Below are positions 702-2,560 of a stretch of 7,637 bases of DNA, in pieces (the stretch's first letter is position 1; each line of letters begins with the position of its first letter). Origin of the DNA: Betaproteobacteria bacterium. GTDB lineage: Bacteria > Pseudomonadota > Gammaproteobacteria > Burkholderiales > SG8-39. The notes beneath the pieces are model-generated. The model made no database searches, was not told the origin of the DNA, and was given only the letters and a program-made list of their open reading frames with translations. The position numbers were made by a program, and so were the translations under genes. Where the stretch lies: assembly GCA_029865405.1 (NCBI GenBank), contig JAOUGZ010000117.1, positions 1-7,637 of the forward strand. Direction: 5' to 3'.

Positions 702-788
702 GGAGGGGTGCCCGAGCGGCTAAAGGGGGCAGACTGTAAATCTGTTGGCCTTGCGCCTACGTTGGTTCGAATCCAACCCCCTCCACCA
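702..788 (+). tRNA. tRNA-Tyr (anticodon GUA)
   Basis: The cloverleaf can be folded by hand. The acceptor stem is GGAGGGG (702-708) with CCCCTCC (778-784), followed by discriminator A785 and encoded CCA (786-788). The anticodon stem 729-733/741-745 encloses the loop CTGTAAA with anticodon GTA at 736-738. The T arm is GTTGG/CCAAC (761-765/773-777) around TTCGAAT. The long variable region (about 746-760) is the class II arm expected of bacterial tRNA-Tyr. It is the first gene of a Tyr-Gly-Thr-tuf cluster and lies directly behind the promoter at 660-688. Confidence 0.97.
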
Positions 789-843
789 GCGATGCGGGCG
801 GTCCCGGCGGCGAGGCGGTGCACGGCATGGGTGGGGTGAACAG

Positions 844-917
844 GCGGGTGTAGCTCAATGGTAGAGCAGAAGCCTTCCAAGCTTATGACGAGGGTTCGAT
901 TCCCTTCACCCGCTCCA
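844..917 (+). tRNA. tRNA-Gly (anticodon UCC)
   Basis: The acceptor stem is GCGGGTG (844-850) with CACCCGC (907-913), then discriminator T914 and CCA (915-917). The anticodon loop CTTCCAA (874-880) carries anticodon TCC at 876-878, flanked by stem 869-873/881-885, in which the outermost pair is a G-A mismatch. The T loop TTCGATT is canonical. It reads GGA and GGG glycine codons. The 55-bp gap after tRNA-Tyr holds no recognisable gene and is probably removed during processing of a common precursor. Confidence 0.97.
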
Positions 918-931
918 ACGAAAGGGTCACG

Positions 932-1006
932 GCCCATGTAGCTCAGTGGTAGAGCACTCCCTTGGTAAGGGAGAGGTCATGCGTTCAATCCGCATCATGG
1001 GCACCA
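932..1006 (+). tRNA. tRNA-Thr (anticodon GGU)
   Basis: The acceptor stem is GCCCATG (932-938) with CATGGGC (996-1002), then A1003 and CCA (1004-1006). The anticodon stem CTCCC/GGGAG (957-961/969-973) encloses the loop TTGGTAA with anticodon GGT at 964-966. It reads ACC and ACU threonine codons. It starts 14 bases after tRNA-Gly and ends 46 bases before the tuf start. This is the tRNA-Thr to tuf arrangement known for tufB loci in proteobacteria, and it implies processing out of a tRNA-mRNA precursor. Confidence 0.97.
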
Positions 1007-1052
1007 CGGACAACGGCAGCACGTAAAGACTGAACGGAAACGAAAGAAGGCC

Positions 1053-2243
1053 ATGGCAAAAGGCAAATTCGAGCGTACGAAGCCTCACGTGAACGTGGGG
1101 ACGATTGGTCACGTGGATCACGGCAAGACGACGCTGACGGCGGCGATCACGCACGTGTTGAGCAAGAAGTTTGGTGGTGAGGCGAAGAATTACGATCAGA
1201 TTGACGCGGCGCCGGAGGAAAAGGCGCGCGGCATCACGATCAACACGGCGCACGTGGAGTACGAGACGGGCAAGCGCCACTACGCGCACGTGGACTGCCC
1301 GGGGCACGCGGACTACATCAAGAACATGATCACGGGTGCGGCGCAGATGGATGGCGCCATTTTGGTGGTCTCGGCGGCCGATGGGCCGATGCCGCAGACG
1401 CGCGAGCATATTCTTCTGGCGCGCCAGGTCGGGGTCCCGTACATCGTGGTGTTCCTGAACAAGGCCGACATGGTCGACGACAAGGAGCTGCTGGAGCTGG
1501 TGGAGGTGGAGGTGCGGGAGCTTTTGTCCAAGTACGACTTCCCGGGCGACAAGACCCCGATCGTGATCGGCTCGGCGCTGAAGGCCTTGGAGGGCGACAA
1601 GGGCGACATGGGCGAGGGCGCGATCATGAAGCTGGCCGATGCGCTGGACTCCTACATCCCGCAGCCCAAGCGCGCGATCGACGGGCCGTTCCTGATGCCG
1701 GTGGAGGACGTGTTCTCCATCTCGGGCCGTGGCACGGTGGTCACGGGGCGGGTGGAGCGCGGCATCGTGAAGGTGGGCGATGAGATCGAGATCGTGGGCC
1801 TGAAGGCGACGCTCAAGACGGTGTGCACGGGCGTGGAGATGTTCAGAAAGCTCCTGGATGAGGGCCAGGCCGGGGACAACGTGGGGATCCTGCTGCGGGG
1901 CACCAAGCGAGAAGAGGTGGAGCGCGGGCAAGTGCTGGCGAAACCCGGCTCGATCACGCCGCACGCGAAGTTCGAGTGCGAGGTGTACGTGCTCTCCAAG
2001 GAAGAGGGCGGGCGGCACACCCCGTTCTTCAACAACTACCGGCCGCAGTTTTACTTCCGCACGACGGACGTGACCGGTGCGGTGGAGCTGCCCAAGGGCA
2101 CCGAGATGGTGATGCCCGGGGACAACATCAAGATGGTGGTGACGCTGATCACGCCGATCGCGATGGAGCAGGGGCTGCGCTTTGCCATCCGCGAGGGCGG
2201 CAAGACCGTGGGCGCCGGCGTCGTCGCCAAGGTGCTCGAATAA
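1053..2243 (+). CDS. tuf: Elongation factor Tu
   Basis: EF-Tu is the cytoplasmic GTPase that delivers aminoacyl-tRNA to the ribosomal A site. The protein is full length at 396 residues. GTPase motifs are all present: P-loop GHVDHGKT (19-26), the switch I region with RGITI (59-63), DCPGH (81-85), NKAD (136-139) and GSAL (173-176). Domains 2 and 3 follow, with conserved blocks such as GRGTVVTGRVERG and HTPFFNNYRPQFYFRTTDVTG. The ATG at 1053 gives the family N-terminus MAKGKFERTKPHVNVGTIGHVDHGKT; a purine-rich GAAAGAAGG ends two bases before it. Upstream lie three tRNA genes as at tufB loci, yet downstream rpsJ follows after only 5 bases as at tufA loci. Codon use differs from the following genes: threonine is ACG 21 times and ACC 6 times, and one rare AGA (1845-1847) occurs. 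NKAD replaces the NKCD common in beta- and gammaproteobacteria, a tolerated change since Asn136, Lys137 and Asp139 are intact. Confidence 0.98.
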   Translation: MAKGKFERTKPHVNVGTIGHVDHGKTTLTAAITHVLSKKFGGEAKNYDQIDAAPEEKARGITINTAHVEYETGKRHYAHVDCPGHADYIKNMITGAAQMDGAILVVSAADGPMPQTREHILLARQVGVPYIVVFLNKADMVDDKELLELVEVEVRELLSKYDFPGDKTPIVIGSALKALEGDKGDMGEGAIMKLADALDSYIPQPKRAIDGPFLMPVEDVFSISGRGTVVTGRVERGIVKVGDEIEIVGLKATLKTVCTGVEMFRKLLDEGQAGDNVGILLRGTKREEVERGQVLAKPGSITPHAKFECEVYVLSKEEGGRHTPFFNNYRPQFYFRTTDVTGAVELPKGTEMVMPGDNIKMVVTLITPIAMEQGLRFAIREGGKTVGAGVVAKVLE

Positions 2244-2248
2244 CGACA

Positions 2249-2560
2249 ATGCAGAATCAGCGCATCCGCATCCGCCTCAAGGCGTATGACTACCGGCTGA
2301 TCGACCAGTCGGCGCTCGAGATCGTCGACACCGCCAAGAGGACGGGCGCGGTGGTGCGCGGCCCGGTGCCGCTGCCGACGCGTCGGCAGCGTTTCGACCT
2401 GCTGCGCTCGCCGCATATCGACAAGGCGTCGCGCGAGCAGCTCGAGATCCGCACGCACCTGCGGCTGATGGACATCATCGACCCGACTGACAAGACCGTG
2501 GACGCGCTGATGAAGCTCGACCTGCCGGCGGGCGTGGACGTGGAGATCAAGGTTCAGTAA
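2249..2560 (+). CDS. rpsJ: 30S ribosomal protein S10
   Basis: S10 (uS10) is a head protein of the 30S subunit. It also forms the NusB-S10 pair in transcription antitermination and binds NusG, coupling RNA polymerase to the ribosome. The product is 103 residues, the same as in E. coli, and begins with the hallmark MQNQRIRIRLKAYD, continuing with TAKRTGA, VRGPVPLPTR and EIRTHLRLMDI. The ATG at 2249 is chosen because it gives this exact N-terminus; a longer reading frame upstream overlaps tuf and has no S10 similarity. It begins 5 bases after the tuf stop with no good ribosome-binding site in the gap. The nearest purine-rich block, AAGGTG at 2230-2235 inside tuf, is too far to be ideal, which suggests translational coupling to tuf. 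There is no room here for an E. coli-type S10 leader. Confidence 0.97.
   Translation: MQNQRIRIRLKAYDYRLIDQSALEIVDTAKRTGAVVRGPVPLPTRRQRFDLLRSPHIDKASREQLEIRTHLRLMDIIDPTDKTVDALMKLDLPAGVDVEIKVQ

Follow-up and report, generated by a model that had tools for sequence, protein, structure and literature searches.

The window, by which we mean the whole stretch of 7,637 nucleotides analysed here, carries a tuf gene with a tRNA cluster in front of it and the S10 operon behind it:

1 to 576, plus strand: aspartate dehydrogenase gene (aspDH), C-terminal 191 amino acids, cut off by the start of the window (Pfam Asp_DH_C, E = 2.4e-31; NCBIfam aspartate dehydrogenase models)
702 to 788, plus strand: tRNA-Tyr (gta), tufB-type side (ARAGORN, Rfam)
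844 to 917, plus strand: tRNA-Gly (tcc), tufB-type side (ARAGORN, Rfam)
932 to 1006, plus strand: tRNA-Thr (ggt), tufB-type side (ARAGORN, Rfam)
1053 to 2243, plus strand: tuf, encoding full-length EF-Tu of 396 amino acids (NCBIfam EF-Tu, E = 1e-236); the repeat across which the two sides are suspected of having been joined
2244 to 2248, plus strand: spacer of 5 bases (CGACA) between the tuf stop codon and rpsJ (read directly)
2249 to 2560, plus strand: rpsJ (S10), tufA-type side (NCBIfam PRK00596, E = 3e-48)
2676 to 7584, plus strand: S10 operon genes rplC-rplD-rplW-rplB-rpsS-rplV-rpsC-rplP-rpmC-rpsQ (open reading frames; NCBIfam for rplC to rpsC); rplP, rpmC and rpsQ are putative assignments by position, with open reading frames present for rplP and rpsQ

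The earlier note on this DNA had placed the three tRNA genes before tuf and rpsJ five bases after it, and ARAGORN, Rfam, the open reading frames and the NCBIfam models all showed these coordinates to be right. It had also pointed out that essential genes are missing between the two halves, of tufB type in front and of tufA type behind, and indeed no match to tRNA-Trp, secE, nusG, rplKAJL, rpoBC, rpsL, rpsG or fusA was found in the window. The aspDH gene precedes the tRNA-tufB operon in several relatives, not in all of them (G003 differs), and the order aspDH-tRNAs-tuf recurs in G004, G007, G051, G053, G064, G081, G082, G085, G089 and G093. Within the S10 operon, rpsS (5094-5471, 125 amino acids) and rpsC (5822-6691, 289 amino acids) encode proteins with alanine-, proline- and lysine-rich C-terminal tails; the counterparts in six relatives measure 96-130 and 288-313 amino acids, respectively, and the length of the tail varies.

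The usual order around tuf was read from a sample of 399 Burkholderiales genomes (the order sample), 204 of which gave a strong tuf match; 90 loci were typed for the neighbours of tuf (30 returned and 60 fetched, with second copies mainly off long contigs). On contigs seen to be at least 1 Mb long, all 57 tuf junctions with both neighbours readable were canonical, 29 being tRNA-tuf-tRNA-Trp and 28 fusA-tuf-rpsJ. The window thus combines the front of tufB with the back of tufA, which bears out the earlier proposal that its two sides belong to different tuf copies. Two places that had been fetched twice (L373, L375) were taken out of the order count by hand, and the count also omits L353, L357, L359, L363 and L407, where a neighbour is missing or odd (L407 lies on a contig of more than 1 Mb that ends at tuf), as well as the fusA-tuf-tRNA-Met junction of G166 (L369). 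At this last place (G166:C49) the tRNA-Met after fusA-tuf is reversed and there is no rpsJ within the 1.5 kb read, while at L357 (G268:C23) and L363 (G236:C22), whose stretches stop at the tuf start, a second short 3' piece of tuf lies between tuf and rpsJ. The gap between tuf and rpsJ in relatives with fusA-tuf-rpsJ is 7 bases in G053 and 5 bases in G064. Pairs of tuf genes listed on one contig are mostly direct repeats, often about 16.5 kb apart; in G467 (783 kb apart) and G149 (on a single large contig) the copies face opposite ways, and both are canonical despite this orientation.

Mixed junctions, in which the front of one tuf copy meets the back of the other, were confined to other contigs. 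Pooled over three differently chosen samples (the order sample, an 80-locus sample and a family sample), with contigs of no displayed length assigned to the second group, they made up 0 of 62 junctions on contigs of at least 1 Mb and 10 of the other 63 (Fisher p = 0.0013); in the order sample alone the corresponding figures were 0 of 57 and 2 of 25 (p = 0.09). The mixed set includes four window-type junctions in the relatives' family and two drafts of Oxalicibacterium. Among 80 loci found by RplD, 28 had a full tuf and a readable upstream gene, and these comprised 26 cases of fusA-tuf-rpsJ and two of tRNA-Thr-tuf-rpsJ, both in Oxalicibacterium; L004 and L005 were dropped from this sample, being G004 and G005, and its shorter contigs may overlap genomes of the order sample. 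The family of G001 contains 98 genomes, 93 of them with a tuf match, and 18 of the crossing junctions among the matches listed were typed, 11 canonical (in eight genomes) and seven mixed (in six genomes). Five of these seven are of the window type (G023, G032, G042, G082, G094), G082 repeating the window's order with aspDH in front included, and two are of the complementary type, fusA-tuf-tRNA-Trp (G001, G023). The mixed contig of G094 (L432) came from the family list and is tallied with the order sample; this genome is divergent (RplD 52%), and the contig may be a stray in its bin. An odd contig of G079 (G079:C46, L329) was excluded from the family count: its tRNAs-tuf stretch matches to codon 387 only, and is followed by neither tRNA-Trp nor rpsJ, and aspDH lies 2.4 kb downstream in reverse orientation; this may reflect another misjoin. 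In a plasmid collection, 307 records matched the tRNA-tuf-rpsJ query and none covered 80% of it at one place.

The closest relative found, G052, has an RplD 97% identical to that of the window and is its sister in the S10 tree, and G053 and G001 follow with 90% and 88%. Two contigs of G052, C97 on the rpsJ side and C102 on the tRNA-Trp/secE side, have the same 127 terminal bases, consisting of the tuf end and one base beyond, and then part. Their divergence towards rpsJ or tRNA-Trp implies that G052 has two tuf copies, and the pattern is what one node of an assembly graph with two exits would be expected to leave behind. G053 crosses tuf as fusA-tuf-rpsJ and is thus canonical on the tufA side. 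In G001, rpsL-rpsG-fusA-tuf-tRNA-Trp-secE lies inside a contig of 79,348 bases, the left arm of which is collinear with G053:C112 and the right arm with G053:C167; the rpsJ contig of this genome has 69 bases of tuf in common with that contig, and neither the tRNA block nor aspDH was found in G001. Close lineages thus take three paths through tuf (tRNA-tuf-rpsJ in the window, fusA-tuf-rpsJ in G053 and fusA-tuf-tRNA-Trp in G001), and arbitrary exits fit this better than three gene orders.

In G031 a single contig carries the complete canonical order, with the tuf genes as direct repeats 19.7 kb apart and the essential interval between them. Its two copies are identical over 1,210 bases, and up to k = 1,211 the canonical order cannot be told by its k-mers from a mixed contig plus a loop, so that short reads cannot choose the pairing. 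G032, which has 95% DNA identity to G031 over the tuf-S10 stretch, reads tRNAs-tuf-rpsJ, and its contigs stop 114 bases into tuf on the fusA side and about 88 on the tRNA-Trp side; from this pair of genomes we infer that mixed junctions occur where simple excision should be lethal. The tuf copies of G012 show 3 differences in 1,188 bases, those of G057 no mismatch and two gaps, and those of G014 22 differences. The copies of G004 differ by about 3-7%, and those of O. flavum disagree at 22 positions and are never identical for more than 347 bases in a row; collapse is less obvious in these two cases because the copies are not near-identical there.

In several drafts the interval, too, looks like a product of assembly. 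In Oxalicibacterium solurbis (NZ_BMDP01000003, L027) and O. flavum (NZ_BMCG01000004, L046), the order tRNAs-tuf-rpsJ is accompanied by a separate contig of 17,580 or 17,591 bases that carries the interval. This contig begins within tuf and runs as far as the start codon of a full tuf gene that reads on the minus strand; the opening 82 or 104 bases, which belong to tuf, recur exactly at its other end. The gene order deposited for this region in both drafts is probably false. The interval contig of G023 overlaps itself at 89.5% identity, and this genome, which has both mixed junctions, therefore looks like mixed strains. On G179:C74 the start of the interval is traversed twice at 99.9% identity; here the second interval may be a real duplication.

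We consider it most probable, at about three in four, that the window contig arose when the assembler took the wrong exit from a collapsed tuf repeat, a judgement based on related genomes. The organism would very probably possess two near-identical tuf genes, tufB in the order aspDH-tRNA-Tyr-Gly-Thr-tufB-tRNA-Trp-secE and tufA in the order rpsL-rpsG-fusA-tufA-rpsJ. Gene conversion can keep such copies identical beyond the reach of a short read and its mate, and the assembly graph would then contain a single tuf node that two paths enter and two paths leave. The assembler would have come in from the tRNAs and gone out towards rpsJ. This supposes that the window's own species is built like its relatives, that short reads were used and that this path was the wrong one. 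The earlier note had offered two readings, a misjoin at collapsed tuf copies and a genome with one tuf gene. The former is the better supported, by the canonical order of all 57 junctions on long contigs, the confinement of mixed junctions to other contigs (10 of 63, as opposed to 0 of 62), the two exits in G052 and the identical copies in G031; the latter found no support. Several observations sit less comfortably with a misjoin: the divergence of the copies in G004 and O. flavum, the complementary junction of G001 well inside a 79-kb contig, the p value of 0.09 in the order sample by itself, the lack of a mosaic break in the window tuf and, in what is a weak test, the lack of any clear sign of a two-species chimera.

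A third possibility, which the earlier note had not separated out, is a real rearrangement that keeps both copies. Reciprocal exchange between the tuf genes, by inversion between copies in opposite orientation or by excision of the tufB-rpoBC block elsewhere and its reinsertion at tufA, would leave tRNAs-tuf-rpsJ and fusA-tuf-tRNA-Trp-secE in one chromosome. On the stretches read from G001, G053 and G010, rpoC and rpsL are not adjacent: no rpoC turned up in 17.6 kb of G001 sequence upstream of rpsL, nor in 48 kb of G053 sequence. None of the contigs read from the window's clade joins the two clusters. Since the two genes are not neighbours in the window's clade, exchange between distant tuf genes need not be lethal, which counts against the misjoin as well. 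The complementary junction of G001, with both arms collinear with contigs of G053, is what such an exchange predicts; G082 has the window's order down to aspDH, oppositely facing copies do exist in the Burkholderiales (G467, G149), both mixed junctions occur together in the records of E. coli UTI89 and UM146, and almost half of a selected class of tuf conversions in Salmonella come with inversions (PMC5485169). However, G053 is about as close to the window as G001 and has the usual order at tufA, both copies of G467 and of G149 keep their canonical neighbours, no typed genome of the family convincingly has both mixed junctions (G023 being the apparent strain mixture), and the E. coli cases amount to two strains in 5 of 5,375 matched genomes. 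We regard an exchange of this kind as the main rival to the misjoin, unlikely but not far-fetched. That the tRNA-tufB-secE-rpoBC and str-S10 clusters swap partners in the window's lineage of uncultured betaproteobacteria, with the tuf genes as the switch, is a rather doubtful extension of the idea, as is its corollary that the window and G001 represent the two halves of a viable rearrangement, with G053 and other close sisters having kept or regained the old order.

It is very improbable that the organism truly has a single tuf gene after loss of one copy and relocation of the secE-rpoBC-str interval. One strong tuf match apiece came from the bins of G082 and G042, but G042 yielded neither a standard fusA (E <= 1e-100) nor a nusG (E <= 1e-20), and in G082 the fusA contig stops inside fusA and the nusG contig breaks off shortly past secE, which suggests incomplete bins and not relocation. 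Moreover, the closest relative found, G052, has two tuf 3' ends, and none of the annotated contigs of the family has fusA or tRNA-Trp/secE beside a non-tuf neighbour in mid-contig. A fusion within the conserved tuf gene of a tRNA side and an S10 side from different species is just as hard to credit. The window's aspartate dehydrogenase is barely closer to that of G053 (81%) than to those of G051 or G007 (80%), its S10 proteins are far closer to the group of G052, G053 and G001, and the best comparison is missing because no aspartate dehydrogenase match was found in G052 or G001. G053 nevertheless remains the nearest match for this protein, in a tree so poorly resolved that it is weak evidence either way. 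The closest full-length copies of the window tuf among the matches listed are those of G001 and G053 (92% DNA identity), and in a comparison of 12 relatives by 150-base blocks one of these two always came first or fell no more than 2 points short. This closeness along the whole gene speaks against a fusion, and a mosaic tuf was rejected for want of a break. Stop codons and spacers at the tuf exits are locus-specific in G001 and G053 and are uninformative for the window.

If the join is wrong, claims on synteny, operon structure or regulation drawn from the window would be false, and so would those drawn from similar contigs in public drafts. The type of junction is cheaply checked: a short-read assembly of a betaproteobacterium that reads tRNA-Thr-tuf-rpsJ or fusA-tuf-tRNA-Trp should be held suspect there until the join is spanned. 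If, on the other hand, the join is real, it would represent a natural tuf-mediated rearrangement outside the enterobacteria.

Among Salmonella tuf conversions selected at nucleotide 1126, almost half carry a tuf-tuf inversion, according to PMC5485169, which cites Hughes 2000. Such an exchange between tufA and tufB would yield exactly the two mixed junctions, the window type included. The Salmonella copies face each other 762 kb apart (PMC5485169), whereas the window presents one junction alone. The normal tRNA-tufB-secE side is found in one place in 5,345 of 5,375 matched E. coli genomes, and about 25 others, with less than 80% on this side, were left out of the junction typing. The remaining five hold both mixed junction types, fusA-tuf-secE and tRNAs-tuf-chiA, in one record, and consist of UTI89 four times and UM146; three of them are re-deposits of UTI89 of the same length and may not be independent. 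The records include NC_007946.1 (3684500-3733500, L434) and NC_017632.1. In UTI89 the tuf genes have the same direction and enclose, at the place of tufA, a 40-kb block of secE-rpoBC-thi-purHD-rRNA operon-murB-birA-coaA-tRNAs with one rRNA operon, and chiA follows beyond tuf where the window has rpsJ. In E. coli K-12, murB and purH presumably flank different rRNA operons. We infer that the UTI89 order arose either by excision at rRNA operons followed by reinsertion at tuf or by an assembly error; a literature search with most subscription journals outside its scope came across neither a description of the block that UTI89 carries at tufA nor a report of metagenomic tuf misjoins. The Oxalicibacterium drafts have the tRNAs-tuf-rpsJ junction in common with the window, and they hold the interval as a loop-like contig where the window offers the one junction alone. 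Misassembly by collapse of near-identical duplicated genes has its likeness in some of the window's relatives, in the form of an exact repeat longer than a short read, contig ends that share a stretch of sequence, and the interval set apart as a loop.
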